From assembly GCA_944323885.1 (NCBI GenBank), contig CALUUD010000001.1, positions 124,001 to 188,000 on the forward strand: 64,000 bases of DNA, given 5' to 3'. The stretch comes from an uncultured Helicobacteraceae bacterium. GTDB taxonomy: Bacteria; Campylobacterota; Campylobacteria; Campylobacterales; Helicobacteraceae. Position numbers and translations under genes: made by a program. Positions 30,611 through 38,828 of this stretch are shown one piece after another; positions within the stretch are counted from its first letter, which is position 1; every line of letters begins with the position of its first letter. Below the pieces are notes generated by a model. That model saw nothing but the letters and a program-made list of their open reading frames with translations, was not told the origin of the DNA and did not search any database.

Positions 30611-33535
30611 TCAAATTTCTGCATCTATATAAATCTTGCTACGCCACTCCTCAAACATAGCTTGCGTGAAGCGATGTTTAAAGTTCTCATCACTGCTGTA
30701 TTTCTCAAATAGTGCAAGGTGTGTATCCACAATCAGTGCCATATTCTTAACCAAAGCTTCTTCAAACTCAATTCGTGTGTTTTGCTCATCAGAGTTTCGT
30801 GCAATTGTGATGAGCTTCTCATCGTGATCCATTCTCTCTTGCACTTCAGCGATTCCACCTCGGATATTATCCTCATCTCTCCACTCTTCCAAGCCATAAC
30901 GCTCATTGAACTCTCGGATGATTTCCATTATCCCCTCAAGCTCTGGCTCTGGTATCCTGCTTGTACCATCTGCTTGTGAGGGCTTAAGCTCTCCATTCCC
31001 CTCAAGTGAAATATCTAGTGTTTTATCCAACTGCACGCGATAGCTCTCAAAATCCACATTATCTAGTATCCCTCTTGTTAAATCCTCAGCTTTTGGAGGG
31101 AGAAGTTTGGCGATGAGCTTCTTTAGCAAAATATAGGTTTTTTCAAGCTCAATATCCTCAAATGGCAAGATTTGAGCTAGGAAAGAATAATCTTTGAGAT
31201 AAGTCTTGGATTTGTTATAAAACTCAAGTCTTACATCATCATTTTCTAGTCCATCATATCGTGCCACCATCACATCAAGCTTTGCGTGGATGACATTTTC
31301 CCTCTCTATTTTTAGAATCAACTCTGCAAACTCATCTATCTCATCTTGATAGAAAACCCCATATTCAAATAGATTGCTTTTGAGCTCAAAGATCTTTTCA
31401 ATGTCTGTGGGCTCTCCTAAGAAAGTTTGCTCATAAAATGTGCTAAAAGACTCTCCAATCTCTTCATGAGTGTTTGCAAAGTCAAGCACACAAGTATCTT
31501 CTTTGTTTTTGCAGACGCGATTGAGTCTTGAGAGGGTTTGCACTGCACTTACTCCGCTTAGTCGTTTATCCACATACATCGTATGAAGCAAGGGTTGATC
31601 AAATCCTGTTTGATATTTCTCTGCTACGATAAGGAAGCGGTATTCATCTTTTTTGAACTCTTCTTTTAGCCTTGCCTCACTTATCCCATTTAGCCCACTC
31701 TCGCTATAACTCTCCCCATCAATCACCACTTCCCCTGAGAATGCTACCAAAGCACGATAAGAGGGGAACTTGCTCTTTAGATATTCTCTGAAAGCAAAGA
31801 AGTATTTCACCGCATTTTCCCTAGAGCTTGTGACGACCATTGCTTTGGCTTTACCACCGATTTTTTTGTGGATATAGGCATAGAAATGATCGATCATAAT
31901 CTCTGCCTTTTTGGCAATAGCATTTGCGTTGCCCTCGACATAGCGTTTGATTTTTACCTTTGCCTTTTTCTTATCAAACTTTGGATTTTCCTGAGTGGTT
32001 GAAACAATTTTGTAGTAGCTATTGTAAGTGGTGTATCCCCTTAGCACATCGTGGATAAACCCCTCTTCTATGGCTTGTTTCATTGAGTAGAGATGAAAGG
32101 GGATAAACTTCTGCACCCCATCAATCTCATAAGGTGTGCCAAACATCTCCAAAGTCTTGGGCTTGGGCGTGGCAGTAAATGCAAAATACGAGGCGTTGGG
32201 TTGAAGCTTTTTGTTTTTAATAATTTCAATGAGCTCATCTTCTACGCTCCCCTCTCTATCCCTGATGACTTCTCCTAGCTTTTGAGCGGATGTGCCACTC
32301 TGACTTGAGTGAGCCTCATCGATGATGATTGCAAATCTTTTGCCCCTCACTTGAGTGATATCATCAAGGATATAGGGGAATTTCTGAATAGTGGAGATGA
32401 TGATTTTCTTGCCCTCTTCTAGGGACTTTCGCAAATGTTTGCTCCCCTCTGTGATTGGCTCTACAATCCCTTTGATATGAGAAAATCTCTTGATGTTCTC
32501 TTGGATTTGAGAATCAAGCACCTTTCTATCTGTAACGACAATCACACTATCAAAGACAAGCTCTAGCTCCCCATCCTCTCTCACTCGATGCAATCCCACA
32601 AGAGCGTGAGAAAGCCAAGAGATTGAGTTGCTTTTGCCACTTCCTGCACTGTGCTGGATGAGATAGCGTCCCCCTACACCTCTTGCTTTGACATCCTCAA
32701 GAAGCTTCTCTACCACATCAAACTGATGATATCTGGGGAAGATGATTTTGCCCTCCACGCATTGCACATACTCTAGCACCAAAGGGATCAAAGTGTCTTT
32801 GGCAAAGATTCTCTCCCATAGATAGGCTGTTTTTACCCCTTCGCTTGGGGGATTTCCTGCTCCGCTTTTGCACCCTATGGCTCCACTGCCATTGTTTAGC
32901 CCACGATTGAAGGGGAAGAAAAAGGTCTTTTCTCTCTCAAGCTTGGTTGTCATATATGCCAAATCACTATCAAGCGCAAAATGCACGATACAGCGAGACA
33001 AAAGAGGCTCGCTTGGGTCTCTGTCTTTTTTGTATTGCTCTATGGCGTGATAGACATTTTGTCCTGTAAATGGGTTTTTGAGCTCCATTGTGATGAGGGG
33101 GATTCCATTGAGGAAAAGCACCATATCCAAAGAGTTGTTGTTCCTTGAGCTGTAATGGAGCTGACGGATGAGAGAGAGGGTGTTGGAAGAGTAGTTTTGC
33201 AGTGCTGTGGGGTTGGCATCTGTGGAGGGCTTGGGATAGAGCAAGGTAAATTTCACTCCACTGATTTCTACATAGCTTTGAAGGGATTTGAGGATGCCTT
33301 TTTCTCTGATAGAAGAAGCAATGCGTTTGAGTAGGGCTTCTTTGGTATCTTTTATCCCACGCCTTGAGAGCTCATCGAGTGCTTTGCTCTGAGTGGAGAT
33401 GATGAAACTATAAAGAAGCTCACTATCAAGGCAGAGGGATTTGTCATAGTCCCTATCCTCTCGCTTGATATAGGAATGAGAGAGCAAATGCTCCTCAATA
33501 AAGGCTTCTAGGTCTTTTTCTTGGTAGTTAGTCAT
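30611..33535 (-). CDS. hsdR: Type I restriction endonuclease subunit R
   Basis: Motor and nuclease subunit of a Type I system: cuts unmethylated DNA far from its recognition site after ATP-driven translocation. In 974 aa: N-terminal nuclease with D137...E151-L-K153 (PD-ExK type), Walker A HSAGSGKS (295-302), DEAH (406-409), TATPK, and helicase motif VI region QTLSRLNRVCKNKE; a helical C-terminal domain binds the methylase. The frame is intact. Base composition is clearly richer in G+C than the core genes (29 of 60 in bases 33121-33180). The start overlaps the upstream small ORF by 4 bases. Confidence 0.96.
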   Translation of the reverse strand: MTNYQEKDLEAFIEEHLLSHSYIKREDRDYDKSLCLDSELLYSFIISTQSKALDELSRRGIKDTKEALLKRIASSIREKGILKSLQSYVEISGVKFTLLYPKPSTDANPTALQNYSSNTLSLIRQLHYSSRNNNSLDMVLFLNGIPLITMELKNPFTGQNVYHAIEQYKKDRDPSEPLLSRCIVHFALDSDLAYMTTKLEREKTFFFPFNRGLNNGSGAIGCKSGAGNPPSEGVKTAYLWERIFAKDTLIPLVLEYVQCVEGKIIFPRYHQFDVVEKLLEDVKARGVGGRYLIQHSAGSGKSNSISWLSHALVGLHRVREDGELELVFDSVIVVTDRKVLDSQIQENIKRFSHIKGIVEPITEGSKHLRKSLEEGKKIIISTIQKFPYILDDITQVRGKRFAIIIDEAHSSQSGTSAQKLGEVIRDREGSVEDELIEIIKNKKLQPNASYFAFTATPKPKTLEMFGTPYEIDGVQKFIPFHLYSMKQAIEEGFIHDVLRGYTTYNSYYKIVSTTQENPKFDKKKAKVKIKRYVEGNANAIAKKAEIMIDHFYAYIHKKIGGKAKAMVVTSSRENAVKYFFAFREYLKSKFPSYRALVAFSGEVVIDGESYSESGLNGISEARLKEEFKKDEYRFLIVAEKYQTGFDQPLLHTMYVDKRLSGVSAVQTLSRLNRVCKNKEDTCVLDFANTHEEIGESFSTFYEQTFLGEPTDIEKIFELKSNLFEYGVFYQDEIDEFAELILKIERENVIHAKLDVMVARYDGLENDDVRLEFYNKSKTYLKDYSFLAQILPFEDIELEKTYILLKKLIAKLLPPKAEDLTRGILDNVDFESYRVQLDKTLDISLEGNGELKPSQADGTSRIPEPELEGIMEIIREFNERYGLEEWRDEDNIRGGIAEVQERMDHDEKLITIARNSDEQNTRIEFEEALVKNMALIVDTHLALFEKYSSDENFKHRFTQAMFEEWRSKIYIDAEI

Positions 33536-33747
33536 TTTTCTTCCTCTGTTTGTTCTTGCATATTTCTAATTTTTTTATTGAAATGGGTATAAAGCCATAT
33601 CAAGAATCCACCAGTTCCCAAAGTGCCAAAACCAAAGATAAATGCAAAGTCCTTAACACGATCTAACCACTTTTGAGGGAGAAAAATATAAATAGAACTC
33701 ACACAGCTAGTACCAAAATCATGCTTCCAAATTGTTTGAATCTGCAA
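33532..33747 (-). CDS. small membrane ORF, probably the detached C-terminal end of the gene upstream
   Basis: A 71-aa frame with one strong membrane helix (FAFIFGFGTLGTGGFLIWLY), beginning at a TTG at 33747 that has no good ribosome site and lies inside the 578-aa ORF. Removing one TG from the (TG)3 run at 33700-33705 would join the two frames in LVLAV-SSIYIFLPQKW and give one protein with two adjacent membrane helices. So this is more likely the 3' part of a broken or slippage-controlled gene than an independent gene. Its end overlaps the hsdR start (ATGA). Confidence 0.5.
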   Translation of the reverse strand: MQIQTIWKHDFGTSCVSSIYIFLPQKWLDRVKDFAFIFGFGTLGTGGFLIWLYTHFNKKIRNMQEQTEEEK

Positions 33748-35435
33748 AATAGAATTTGGCGTCTTGTATCTTTATCTCTCTCTTCTTTTTCTCTTTGTTT
33801 TCTCCTTGCTTTTTCTTCATTTAGTTGCTGTTGCAGTTTCTCTTTTTCTAAATTTACATCATTCAACTCTTGCGACAATGTTTGATTTTCTGTTTTCAAA
33901 TTTTTATTTTCATTCTCTAAATCTTTTTTTTCTTTCTTATCCTTTTCTTGCTTTTTGATAAAGTAATTCAAATCTGAATTGGATAGCTCTAAAATATCCT
34001 CCATATTGTCGCTGTCTATATCTTCGGGTTTCATTGGCATCGAACGAATAAGATACAAAATTTCTTTAGCTCGTGTTTCGTCTAATTCTTCTTTTCTTCT
34101 TTCTATTTCATCAAACAAAAATTCACTATGTTTATTCATATCAAGAGCCAAGGAAATTTTAGCTCTTGTATCTGCTCTAAACAGCAAAGGCATCTCTTTT
34201 TCATTAGAAAAATTACTTCCAAGCTTATACCACAATATACTTGTTAAGTATTGCAAGTTAAGTGCTAGTGGGATTCTTTGCTCTGCACTATCTCTCTTAA
34301 TATCATTAGCAATACTAATATAATCTTTTTCTTCAGTCAAAAATATGTATTTAGCAGTTTCTATGGTGCATTGATGATTTGCTCTTAAAATACTCAGTTT
34401 ATTTAAAAATTCCAATATCTCGCTAATGTCTTCAACCTCTTTATTGTCTTCTAGCAATTTATTTGAATTAATATTAAAAGGCTTATTTGTATCTAAATTA
34501 AAATCGATATTTGGTAAATCTTTTTCCAAAATAGAATTGCATTCTAATTTTTTGAATAGCTCCAATCTTTCATCTTGAATCTTTATTGTATCCTTGCCAC
34601 ATTTCTCTATAATTTTTTTAGAAGCTGTATTTTTTTGAGTATTTGTATTTTTTGCTATGGCATTAAAAAAATCATCTATGCGTTTTTTCTCTTTTGAGGT
34701 ATAACACAAGAATATAATTTTCTTTTTTTGATTTATTTTTATGATAATTTCAAATAGCTCATCTACAATCTGCTTAAATAGATCTCCATTGTATCCCATA
34801 TAATGAAAAATAATTTCCATGTTGATATAAACATTCAATCTATCAAATTTTCGATTTTCAAAAGTATTTTGATACACCAATCCATTATAAGAAACGATAC
34901 CATTCACTATATTTTTAAGAATAGTATCGTCTTGATTCTCTAGAATAAATGCATTAATAAATATCCCATATTTATCATCTTTCCCAATTCCCAAGAAGTG
35001 GCTAATAAAATTATTTTTTATAATTTCTTTTTCAGCTTCTAGAAGCTTGTTTTTTGTCTTTATTTCTATGAAACTAAACAGTTTGCTAAATAATTGTTTC
35101 TCATCTCTAATAGCATTATCAATTTCAGACTTCATATCTATATTGTCTTGTAAGCCTATTTGCAATGCCTCAAATTTTCTATCTTTATTCTGCAAAAATT
35201 GAGGGGAATCTTTTGCAATATTAACAAGCCTTTTTCTCACTACAATTTGGGGAATTCTTAGTCCAAATTCATTTTTTAGATATTCGCAGATTTCCAAATA
35301 TCCAAAAAACTTAAGTTGTTTATCTTTTATTGTATAAACAATAATCGAGTCTAGAATACTGTTTGCATCTTTCTTTTTTTCCGAGAGATGGTTAAACAAA
35401 ACCAAAGAAGATATTAATTGATATTTTTCGTTCAT
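33699..35435 (-). CDS. unknown accessory protein inside the Type I R-M locus; possible PIN-like domain, coiled coil, truncated membrane tail
   Basis: Not recognised with certainty; 578 aa. Residues 1-95 look like a small helical or winged-helix domain. Residues 200-260 (LNVYINMEIIFHYMGYNG, KKKIIFLCYTSKEKKRIDDF) and 355-410 (AKYIFLTEEKDYISIANDI, IPLALNLQYLTSILWYKLG) together resemble the split halves of a PIN-like RNase fold, but the usual Asp positions read N205 and N393, so activity is doubtful. Residues about 440-560 form a long coiled coil. The tail FGSMILVLAV is a broken membrane helix (see 33532-33747). AT-rich, unlike hsdM and hsdR. Placed 13 bases after hsdS. Confidence 0.7.
   Translation of the reverse strand: MNEKYQLISSLVLFNHLSEKKKDANSILDSIIVYTIKDKQLKFFGYLEICEYLKNEFGLRIPQIVVRKRLVNIAKDSPQFLQNKDRKFEALQIGLQDNIDMKSEIDNAIRDEKQLFSKLFSFIEIKTKNKLLEAEKEIIKNNFISHFLGIGKDDKYGIFINAFILENQDDTILKNIVNGIVSYNGLVYQNTFENRKFDRLNVYINMEIIFHYMGYNGDLFKQIVDELFEIIIKINQKKKIIFLCYTSKEKKRIDDFFNAIAKNTNTQKNTASKKIIEKCGKDTIKIQDERLELFKKLECNSILEKDLPNIDFNLDTNKPFNINSNKLLEDNKEVEDISEILEFLNKLSILRANHQCTIETAKYIFLTEEKDYISIANDIKRDSAEQRIPLALNLQYLTSILWYKLGSNFSNEKEMPLLFRADTRAKISLALDMNKHSEFLFDEIERRKEELDETRAKEILYLIRSMPMKPEDIDSDNMEDILELSNSDLNYFIKKQEKDKKEKKDLENENKNLKTENQTLSQELNDVNLEKEKLQQQLNEEKARRKQREKEERDKDTRRQILFCRFKQFGSMILVLAV
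33700..33705 (-). repeat. (TG)3 run at a probable frameshift
   Basis: On the coding (minus) strand the run TGTGTG sits at codons GCT-GTG-TGA, where it makes the stop of the 578-aa frame. With two repeats instead of three the frame reads GCT-GTG-AGT-TCT and continues through the 71-aa membrane ORF to the hsdR start. It is short for a phase-variable tract, so a fixed mutation or a sequencing error is equally possible. Confidence 0.5.
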
Positions 35436-35448
35436 TTTTTTGTCCTTT

Positions 35449-36684
35449 TTATTGTTTTATTCCCGTCCTTCCACATACTGCTTCGGAGATAAGGGTGGAT
35501 TTGTATTCTTTGATGAGATTGATTTGAGATTTGATTTTGAAGATTACACAATCAATCTTTTCTATTTGTGTGTCTAGGTATTCTGCGATTGCTTTTTGTT
35601 CCTCTAGGGGTGGGAGAGGGATTTTGAGATTCCCAATAAATTCCCAATTTGCTCTTGGCATTTTTGTTCCATAGGTTGAGCCATTGACAACATCTATAAA
35701 CGCCCCTGAGAGCATTAAAAATTTTAAAAATCTATTGAATATTTTTTCACTTTTGAGAACCAAAAACTCACTAACACAAATTCCATTTCTATCGGCAAGA
35801 AAAACTTTTGCAAGATAAGGACGAAGTTTCCCAAACAAAACATCTCCCTCAAAAAATCCAATTCCCTCATCATCAAAGGCTGATTCATCTGCTTGGATAA
35901 ATCTACCTGTTTTACTCTCTATGTTTTCAAGCCCAATCCTAAAATCACTTTCTCCCTCTTTTTGATTCCTTAAAGAAACAACATATTTTAGCTTTTTCAC
36001 TTCCCAATGTGTGGGGATTTTTCCAAGCCACTCTACTCCACTGTCTTTGAGGGGTGTGGAGGAATCAAGCCCTTGGGTTACGCACTGATTGATGAGGGCT
36101 TGCTTTTTCTCCTCCAAGAGGGTGATGAGCTTTTGCTTTTTATCGATGAATTCCTCTATTTGGCAAGTCTTTTTGTCTAGGAAATCTGCGATAGCTTGTT
36201 GTTCTTTTAGGGGTGGCAGTATGAAAAATAGATTCTCAAAAAGACTGCCACTAACGTGTGGGATTCCCATTCCATTTGTCTGACTTCTAAGTTCTTTTTC
36301 AATCAGAACCAAAAAATGCTTGGCATAATTTTTTTCTACGCCACTAAACTTGATAACAGCCATAGTTGAAGCAAGATAGCCATCTTGAGCTGAAATAAAT
36401 TCCCCTGCATTTGCCCCATCCCAAAGCAATAAAATATCACCCTCAGATACCCTAATTAAATCCGAGGTATCCTCAATATAGAAAATCTTCTTGTATTTTT
36501 TTCTTAAAAATTCCATTGTCAAATAAATATTCTCATTTGGGGTATCACTAAAACTTTTTGGATTTTTTCCTTTTTTGTAGCTAAGAATATACTTAACTCT
36601 CCTCATCTCCCAATGCTCAGGAATCTTCCCTACCCAAGGGATTCCACTCTCTTTATAGGCAACGCTCTGTGGATTCCCACTCAT
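35449..36684 (-). CDS. hsdS: Type I restriction-modification specificity subunit S
   Basis: Sets the bipartite DNA target of the enzyme. The 411-aa protein shows the expected internal duplication: KESGIPWVGKIPEHWEMRRV and KDSGVEWLGKIPTHWEVKKL open two target-recognition domains, each followed by a conserved helical spacer (LPPLKEQQAIADFLDKKTCQ and LPPLEEQKAIAEYLDTQIEK). Both half-subunits are full length. The spacer DNA is G+C richer and the recognition domains are AT-richer, the mosaic expected from domain shuffling. Overlaps hsdM by 4 bases. Confidence 0.95.
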   Translation of the reverse strand: MSGNPQSVAYKESGIPWVGKIPEHWEMRRVKYILSYKKGKNPKSFSDTPNENIYLTMEFLRKKYKKIFYIEDTSDLIRVSEGDILLLWDGANAGEFISAQDGYLASTMAVIKFSGVEKNYAKHFLVLIEKELRSQTNGMGIPHVSGSLFENLFFILPPLKEQQAIADFLDKKTCQIEEFIDKKQKLITLLEEKKQALINQCVTQGLDSSTPLKDSGVEWLGKIPTHWEVKKLKYVVSLRNQKEGESDFRIGLENIESKTGRFIQADESAFDDEGIGFFEGDVLFGKLRPYLAKVFLADRNGICVSEFLVLKSEKIFNRFLKFLMLSGAFIDVVNGSTYGTKMPRANWEFIGNLKIPLPPLEEQKAIAEYLDTQIEKIDCVIFKIKSQINLIKEYKSTLISEAVCGRTGIKQ

Positions 36685-38591
36685 TGCACAATCTCACTCA
36701 GCAAGCTCTGCACTTCACTCTCCAAGCTCTCTAGCTCGGCTTTGATTTCTCCCATACTTCGTGGGGGTGTGTAGGTGTAGAAATATTTGTTAAACAAGAT
36801 TTCATAGCCCACACTCGCACTCTCATAATCTATCCAAGAGTTTGGCACATAGGGTTTGACTTCGCTTTCATAGTAGGCTTGGATAGGGGTTTTGAGGGGG
36901 ATTTTCTCGGTGTTGGCTGTTTTGTCGCTATCGATGAGGAGATTGGCTTCGCTCTTGCTGAGTTTCACTCCAAGATAGGAGAGGAAATCTGCCCTATCTT
37001 TGAAATCTTGGGGGTGGGATTCTAAGTGGGTGAGCTTCTCTAGGAGGGCTTCTTTTTGAGCGAGGGAGTTAAATCTCTCATCTTCTAGGAGGTCTTTTAC
37101 CTGTCTGGGTCGCTCTATGGTGATTTTGGTATAGCCAAAGTCCTCATTGTCTAGCACGAGGGCATCTCCCTCTTTGGCATAGTCTAGGAATAGCTTTGTG
37201 ATTGCTTCGATGTGGGAGGGTTGCATTTGGTGCTGTTTGTCGCCAAGGGATTTTTTCATCTTGGAGTAGTATTTCTCGCTTGTGGCGTTGATGAGCTGGA
37301 CTTTGCCTTTTCTCTCCTCTTTTTTTCTGTTGGTAATGATCCAAATAAATGTCGGAATCCCTGTGTTGTAAAACATATTTGTAGGCAAGGCGATGATAGC
37401 TTCAAGATAGTCGTTTTCTATGATGTGTTTGCGGATAGCCACTTGTCCGCTGTCTGAGTTGAAAAGGGAGCTTCCATTATGCACGGAGGCGATGCGTGAG
37501 CCTTGAGTGGTTTGCTTCATCTTTGAAATCATATTGAGAAGAAACATCATCTGTCCATCACTCTTGCTTGTGATCCCCACTTGGAATCTCTCATCAGAGC
37601 AAGAGGTTTTTGAGCCCTTTTTCTTCACATCTAGGGCTTTTTGATCTTTCTCCCACGACTTGCCATAGGGTGGGTTTGTGAGCATAAAGTCAAATTTCAA
37701 ATCCCCTAGTTTGTCTTCACTAAGAGTTGAGCCGTATTTGATATTGTCAGGGTCTTCGCCTTTGATAAGCATATCAGCCTTGCAGATTGCATAAGTTTCA
37801 GGGTTGATTTCTTGTCCGTAGAGGCGGATAGTGGCATTTGAGCGGATGAGCCCATTGGGGTCGGTGATAAACTCTTTGGATTCTGTAAGCATCCCTCCAC
37901 TTCCACAAGCATTGTCATAGATGAGGAATGAGCCTTCTTTGATTTGCTCTTTGACAGGGAGGAAAGTGAGATGAGTCATCAGCTGGATGATTTCTCTAGG
38001 GGTGAAGTGCTCTCCTGCTTCTTCGTTGTTTTCTTCGTTGAATTTTCTTATCAGCTCTTCAAAAACATAGCCCATTCCAAGATTGCTTAGCCCTTGGTGG
38101 AGGATGTTGCCTTGAGAGTCTAGGATAGGGTTTATGGAGAGGTTGATTTTGGGAGAGCAAAAACGCTCAATGACTACAAAGAGGATACCTGCCTCCTCAA
38201 GGGTGTCAAGCTGGTTTTTGAACTTGAATTTTGCGATGATGTCTTGGATATTGGGGCTGAAGCCATCAAGGTAGTTTTCTAGGTTGGATCGGATATGTTT
38301 GGGGTCTTTACAGAGGGTTTGGAGCGTGAATTTGGAGTAGTTATAGAAGCTCATCCCACTGCCTTGCTCTCCTGTGAGAAAGGTATCAAGAAACCCTGCA
38401 ATCCCCTTACGAGCTTCATAGGTTGCTAAAACTCTTTCTTTGGTAGGCTCAAGCACCGCATCAAGTCGCCTAATCACCGTCATTGGCAAAATCACATCGC
38501 GATATTTGCCTTTGACATAGACATCACGCAAGAGGTCATCTGCCACACCCCAAATAAAATTGATAATAGGTTGGAATTGTGCGGTATCCAT
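36681..38591 (-). CDS. hsdM: Type I restriction-modification methyltransferase subunit M
   Basis: Adenine-N6 methyltransferase subunit. In about 636 aa: N-terminal helical domain, GEHFTPREIIQLM, SAM motif I YDNACGSGGMLTES, catalytic motif IV NPPYGKSW and a C-terminal helical tail. The start is ambiguous between GTG at 38594 and ATG at 38591, both served by AGGAG; I chose the ATG. First gene of the operon hsdM-hsdS-unknown-hsdR. Composition is about 45% G+C in a sampled line (37081-37140), against about 28% in core lines, which suggests lateral transfer. Confidence 0.95.
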   Translation of the reverse strand: MDTAQFQPIINFIWGVADDLLRDVYVKGKYRDVILPMTVIRRLDAVLEPTKERVLATYEARKGIAGFLDTFLTGEQGSGMSFYNYSKFTLQTLCKDPKHIRSNLENYLDGFSPNIQDIIAKFKFKNQLDTLEEAGILFVVIERFCSPKINLSINPILDSQGNILHQGLSNLGMGYVFEELIRKFNEENNEEAGEHFTPREIIQLMTHLTFLPVKEQIKEGSFLIYDNACGSGGMLTESKEFITDPNGLIRSNATIRLYGQEINPETYAICKADMLIKGEDPDNIKYGSTLSEDKLGDLKFDFMLTNPPYGKSWEKDQKALDVKKKGSKTSCSDERFQVGITSKSDGQMMFLLNMISKMKQTTQGSRIASVHNGSSLFNSDSGQVAIRKHIIENDYLEAIIALPTNMFYNTGIPTFIWIITNRKKEERKGKVQLINATSEKYYSKMKKSLGDKQHQMQPSHIEAITKLFLDYAKEGDALVLDNEDFGYTKITIERPRQVKDLLEDERFNSLAQKEALLEKLTHLESHPQDFKDRADFLSYLGVKLSKSEANLLIDSDKTANTEKIPLKTPIQAYYESEVKPYVPNSWIDYESASVGYEILFNKYFYTYTPPRSMGEIKAELESLESEVQSLLSEIVQ

Positions 38592-38828
38592 CACAAATAC
38601 TCCTAGAAAAAATAAAAGAAAAATTCTATAAAATTCTCAAGAATTCCTCAATAAAAAAACTAGTGATTAAAGATATTTTAAACTATCATTTTTGATTAAA
38701 TTATGTTTTATTAAAATTATTAATATATTTAAGTATTTTGATATATTTTTTAAACTTATTACCATTTTCTATCAATATTTTTAGAATAGAATCCAAAAAA
38801 ATAATATTTCATTATATCAAGGAAAAAT

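Follow-up and report, generated by a model that had tools for sequence, protein, structure and literature searches.

A membrane-anchored protein family with a split PIN-like domain in Type I restriction–modification operons and mobile elements: a putative defence factor

The window analyzed here, a 64,000-nt stretch of a contig from an uncultured Helicobacteraceae bacterium, contains a Type I restriction–modification (R-M) operon on its minus strand. The operon includes hsdM, which encodes the methyltransferase (36681..38594; PF02384, E 2e-61), hsdS, which encodes the specificity subunit (35449..36684; PF01420, E 1.4e-30), and hsdR, which encodes the restriction subunit (30611..33535). The hsdR product scored over the cut-off for HSDR_N and SWI2_SNF2, and reached 206 bits against TIGR00348, under the cut-off of 284.55. 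Between hsdS and hsdR, downstream of hsdM and hsdS and separated from the latter by 13 nt, lies a minus-strand open reading frame (ORF) of 578 amino acids (33699..35435), in agreement with the initial annotation, which had placed this gene inside a Type I R-M operon. Its product had no gathering-level match in Pfam, NCBIfam, PADLOC (2023) or PHROGs. The ORF encodes a winged helix, a split PIN-like domain and a coiled coil, and is truncated inside a first membrane helix.

The winged helix spans residues ~5–95 (35151..35423, minus strand) and was identified in an AF2 model with pLDDT values mostly of 64–72. The top PDB matches to this part of the model were MarR, PadR and STIV F93, all of them winged-helix proteins, with Z of 7–7.8; a role in DNA or partner binding is probable. 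Two PIN-like segments had been proposed at residues 200–260 and 355–410; both were recovered, at about residues 197–262 (34650..34847, minus strand; motif YINMEIIFHYMGYNG, with N205 and R252) and 335–408 (34212..34433, minus strand; I340 and E369, with R351, T367, P389 and W402 conserved). An insertion of ~70–90 residues splits the domain. The proposed coiled coil is present, but it is nearer 80–90 than 120 residues long (about residues 486–565; 33741..33980, minus strand). Pfam matches to coiled-coil proteins (dynein light chain, CENP-F) were rejected as compositional. Hydropathy analysis of full-length homologs predicted a C-terminal membrane helix in each one tested, with a second such helix in most of them. 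We are highly confident of the overall architecture and homology of the family: winged helix, split PIN domain, coiled-coil stalk, and C-terminal membrane hairpin.

The C-terminus of the window protein was compared with that of a relative, G343, whose intact copy encodes 643 amino acids and has an open frame through two membrane helices. The 3' ends of the two genes share 89% DNA identity over ~396 aligned nt, and in this alignment their frames diverge at about 33704..33710, within the first membrane helix. Only a remnant of that helix, residues 566–578 (33702..33740, minus strand), is left in the 578-residue product. The second membrane helix (about 33592–33648) and the original stop codon are found in another frame, in a tail ORF (33532..33747, minus strand) whose stop overlaps the start codon of hsdR by 4 nt (ATGA). 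As G343 stays in frame through both helices, the frameshift reading of the window gene is right, and undoing the shift yields the two C-terminal membrane helices that had been anticipated. Since the break falls inside the first helix, the window copy is left without the membrane hairpin.

The frame break in the window may be a genuine mutation or an artefact of assembly. The window copy, having lost its hairpin, is probably non-functional or switched off. Broken frames were found in five of the 11 Campylobacterota copies (L033, L034, L005/L035, L030, and the window). Besides the window, G043, G422, G428, and G430 have broken frames. The break lies at a T8 tract in H. bilis and near an A7 tract in G043 and G430, and there is no long tract at the site in the window. 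Phase variation, a cost of carrying the gene, or decay could each account for the broken Campylobacterota copies, and the gene could be dispensable.

The assignment of the split domain to the PIN fold was assessed via structure models and profile comparisons. Models were of low confidence (mean pLDDT 50–60), and in the full-length AF2 model of the window protein the PIN region, mostly <50, was too poor to search, leaving only the winged helix usefully searchable. The fold was modelled on the domain of a homolog from clade B of the family, L052 (AF2; mean pLDDT 50, core 60–81). Foldseek alone gave a best E of 0.025 for this model and no match at E <0.001, with PIN/FEN-type nucleases dominating the top ranks. 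A second look at Foldseek's list with VIA-align showed that nearly all among the 50 matches listed were PIN domains, the best being VapC 3zvk_B (Z 7.9, rmsd 3.3, 111 residues, model positions 53–250). In two distant homologs, PF13470 (PIN_3) matched exactly at the DTP/DTS motif (E 3e-4 and 6e-4), at 21–22 bits, under the Pfam cut-off of 27; the Pfam search found no PF13470 match in the window protein. A profile–profile comparison (hhalign) of clade B with 24 PIN_3 proteins gave a probability of 29.7% (E 5.6e-4 for a single comparison), and ten shuffled and one reversed control gave at most 0.3%. Profiles of the window clade and of clade A had no direct PIN_3 match, so that the link to PIN runs via clade B, and a PDB sequence search with the family profiles returned coiled-coil and chance matches and no PIN match. 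Taken together, the homolog model, the sub-threshold PIN_3 matches and the profile–profile comparison support the initial idea of a PIN-type fold split by an insertion, and the window protein, linked through profile homology to the modelled homolog, is predicted to belong to the PIN-fold superfamily.

The catalytic residues of the PIN domain showed a graded loss towards the Type I operon branch. The acids and the TxN motif (D, E, D, T-x-N) are invariant in clade B (eight of eight members), and the first position is Asp in clade B and in most clade-A homologs. Gammaproteobacterial members of clade A keep the first Asp and the Glu, and have lost the third acid. The window clade (window, G139, G427, and G343), which sits on a long branch of the tree with 100/100 support, reads N, R, I or K, T, E. 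In the window protein the first position is N205, confirming the earlier remark that a key Asp reads Asn, and the loss extends beyond that remark: R252 replaces the catalytic Glu, I340 the third acid, and E369 the Asn of TxN. With these replacements at the D-E-D-TxN positions, catalysis is unlikely in the window clade. Outside this clade, the copy in the Type I operon of G089 has Asn at the first position and keeps the Glu, and the H. bilis copy, whose neighbour is a type II R-M system, likewise has the sequence NME there. The copies of G422 and G430, near R-M genes, still read DTE; loss of the first Asp thus tracks some host R-M loci, not all.

The motif NMEIIFHxxGYNG is conserved. Between G139 and G427, dN/dS was 0.28 for the PIN-like region, 0.24 for the N-terminal part, and 0.22 for the coil, and the value for the PIN-like region indicates that the pseudo-PIN domain is under constraint. 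The membrane part evolves fast between these close relatives (dN/dS 0.76).

The distribution of the family in Campylobacterota is sporadic, with homologs in 10 of 397 sampled genomes, plus H. bilis. Other homologs were found on Citrobacter, Pantoea, and Duffyella plasmids, in E. coli prophages, in four distinct viral contigs, and in a Helicobacter pullorum prophage. More distant homologs are carried on plasmids of Arthrobacter, Enterococcus, Hymenobacter, Sporosarcina, Listeria, Klebsiella, and Pantoea piersonii. Among 5,426 E. coli genomes, the probes used here detected clade A in four and clade B in two. A profile built from clade B only recovered known Campylobacterota members (E 2e-16 to 2e-6), and the window clade matched clade B over 455 columns (hhalign, E 2.7e-12), so the homology spans most of the protein. 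The family, which has no name, is widespread in several bacterial phyla and moves horizontally. Matches in G207 and G287 (E 4e-4 and 1e-3) lie inside an ORF of substrate-binding type and were discarded as chance, as were PADLOC matches to LeoA, Cas8b, and oMTase (one member each, E 0.003–0.012).

We then examined the genes surrounding the family members. The order hsdM-hsdS-gene-hsdR is shared by the window and G139 (44% identity). Between hsdS and hsdR, operons of this type have a slot whose content varies: in G343, a KAP NTPase gene (L029 3925–6894) lies between hsdS and the family gene, and in G427 a gene judged by eye to be DUF3800-like (L027 6148–6846) lies between the family gene and hsdR. 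In G089 the order, read by eye, is hsdS, a protease-like gene, the family gene, an AlbA-like gene, a Fic-like gene, and a large ORF at the position of hsdR. The gene of G055 is split over two contig ends (L037 1–2010; L036) and, like that of G089, has a Fic-like gene after it, suggesting that this is the same Type I operon and that the assembly has interrupted it. The G430 copy is 1.5 kb from an hsdS. In total, six of the 11 Campylobacterota copies are within 3.2 kb of an hsdS (0.17 expected, P 4e-9), or three of seven lineages after collapsing related copies (P 2e-4), both P values being somewhat generous because the 3.2 kb distance was picked after the loci had been viewed. Two further Campylobacterota copies adjoin other R-M genes, namely Tsp45I endonuclease and methylase genes in H. 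bilis and a DNA methylase gene in G422. The G464 copy (L028 13465–15548), which adjoins a gene for a DUF4365 protein, lies ~4–5 kb from TniQ/TniB genes and is probably cargo of a Tn7-like element.

In E. coli, the gene was seen in a lambdoid prophage at its ssrA end, in a P2-like prophage close to ogr and gene D, and in a second P2-like prophage, where genes for the tail sheath and the tail fibre flank it. Variable P2 loci carry anti-phage genes (PMC9122126); the hotspot analyzed in that study is cos-proximal and is not one of the E. coli sites of this family. On plasmids, the Hymenobacter copy is near genes annotated as methyltransferase, DEAD/DEAH helicase, and CHAT, and the Sporosarcina copy is near annotated nucleotidyltransferase, ThiF, Mov34, and SAVED genes, a CBASS-like set; several other plasmid copies have no recognisable defence neighbour. 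The expected placement in Type I operons was thus observed, and the gene is enriched next to R-M genes and among the cargo of mobile elements, the statistic covering Campylobacterota and the evidence elsewhere consisting of the sites listed here. Overall, a role of the family in defence is likely.

PrrC and RloC are anticodon nucleases that combine an ABC ATPase domain with an ACNase triad. The window gene resembles prrC of EcoprrI in lying within a Type I hsd operon as an accessory to restriction, but its product has winged-helix, PIN-like, and membrane parts instead; searches of Pfam, NCBIfam, and PADLOC found no RloC/PrrC ATPase domain in it, and membership of the PrrC/RloC family was ruled out by the lack of ATPase motifs. 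SNIPE (PD-lambda-1) likewise unites a DNA-binding module, a nuclease fold and a membrane anchor in one defence protein. It differs in having a single N-terminal membrane helix, DUF4041 and GIY-YIG, where the window family has a winged helix, a PIN domain, and a C-terminal membrane hairpin, and Pfam gave no match to DUF4041 or GIY-YIG in the family. With VapC and PIN_3 (PF13470) the family shares the PIN fold and, in clade B, the D-E-D-TxN residues. Unlike those proteins, it is split by an insertion and membrane anchored, its window clade has lost the tetrad, and no antitoxin partner was seen.

A further parallel is DS-3, a one-protein anti-phage system of E. coli reported with DefensePredictor, whose PIN domain is described as split between the N- and C-terminus (PMC13092281). 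Mutating its catalytic residues abolishes defence, and its authors suggest auto-inhibition (PMC13092281). The split PIN domain is a common trait, and the dependence on catalytic residues sets DS-3 apart from the window clade, which lacks them. DS-3 may belong to the same family; as the family is rare in E. coli, its identity with DS-3, a system drawn from 69 strains, is uncertain.

The nuclease being probably dead, the useful parts in the Type I branch would be those for binding and for membrane attachment. Clade-B proteins could be nucleases that are tethered to the membrane and attack nucleic acid of the phage or the host, and the proteins of the Type I branch pseudo-nucleases that keep the sensing or binding and membrane parts and serve as accessories of the R-M enzyme. 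We give about even chances to the reading of the window gene as one for a membrane-anchored pseudo-PIN defence protein, with a guard in the style of PrrC as its likeliest role. The guard role is favored on the precedent of prrC. That gene, embedded in a Type IC operon, specifies a latent nuclease that the R-M complex sequesters (PMC3874165) and that T4 infection sets free (PMC3874165; PMC2610378). By analogy, an intact Type I enzyme would keep the guard inactive, and the guard would act at the membrane once a phage blocks that enzyme, a mechanism that we put forward tentatively.

Rather unlikely, in our estimate, is a role as a tether, in which the pseudo-PIN domain and winged helix would attach to the Type I complex or to DNA entering the cell, and so place restriction at the inner membrane. 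The siting would be SNIPE-like, where phage DNA enters, with the nuclease supplied by HsdR. SNIPE is a membrane-anchored DNA-binding nuclease that protects at the injection site (PMC13190303), and a tether would fit both the loss of catalytic residues with retention of coil and hairpin in intact relatives and the operon placement with its 4-nt overlap with hsdR; the occurrence of the family in prophages and plasmids without R-M genes argues against it. The frame break in the window, the further broken frames in G043, G422, G428, and G430, and the unrelated genes sharing the slot (in G343 and G427) would instead suit passenger cargo, i.e., a mobile defence gene in a variable hsd position, functionally untied to the Type I enzyme and decaying here. 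This is unlikely given that dN/dS is well below 1 in close hsd-linked relatives, the same operon type recurs in four species, and the NMEIIFHxxGYNG motif is conserved. An active RNase effector, as initially envisaged, could draw on the PIN fold and on rearranged acids such as E207 and E359, as every clade-A member has a Glu two residues past the first Asp position and many have E359. It is highly improbable: all four residues (D1, E2, D3, N4) are replaced in the window clade, Arg at the E2 position is hard to square with metal binding, and the window copy is also without its membrane hairpin.

Returning to the guard, a rather unlikely scenario is that Type I operons acquired a mobile PIN nuclease tethered to the membrane, dropped catalysis, and kept a membrane-anchored sensor or guard by which the state of the enzyme, or DNA entering the cell, is coupled to a response at the membrane. 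If true, this would make the pseudo-nuclease a second layer of Type I immunity. The family is a defence-associated one new to PADLOC (2023), Pfam, NCBIfam, and PHROGs, and its members are placed, across several phyla, in prophages, plasmids, R-M operons, and a probable Tn7-like element. With intact relatives and E. coli prophage homologs at hand, the idea that genes within Type I hsd operons report on the enzyme, as PrrC does, becomes testable.

Two minor observations concern the hairpin and a genomic site. The membrane hairpin of one distant homolog matched the SLATT 2TM effector domain (NF033632; E 8e-5, far under cut-off), a hint of a relation; one of 17 members matched, and control genomes likewise yielded weak matches. 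In three genomes (L031, L034, and L035), R-M genes and the family gene lie directly beside a guaA-like gene, a position at which defence genes may preferentially integrate in Helicobacteraceae. GMP synthase (GuaA) is usually about 510 amino acids long. The GuaA-like ORFs, identified by eye, have 1653 amino acids in H. bilis (L035 1203–6164) and 2072 in G422 (L034 7783–14001), with long inserted stretches that, by eye, resemble GNAT acetyltransferases.
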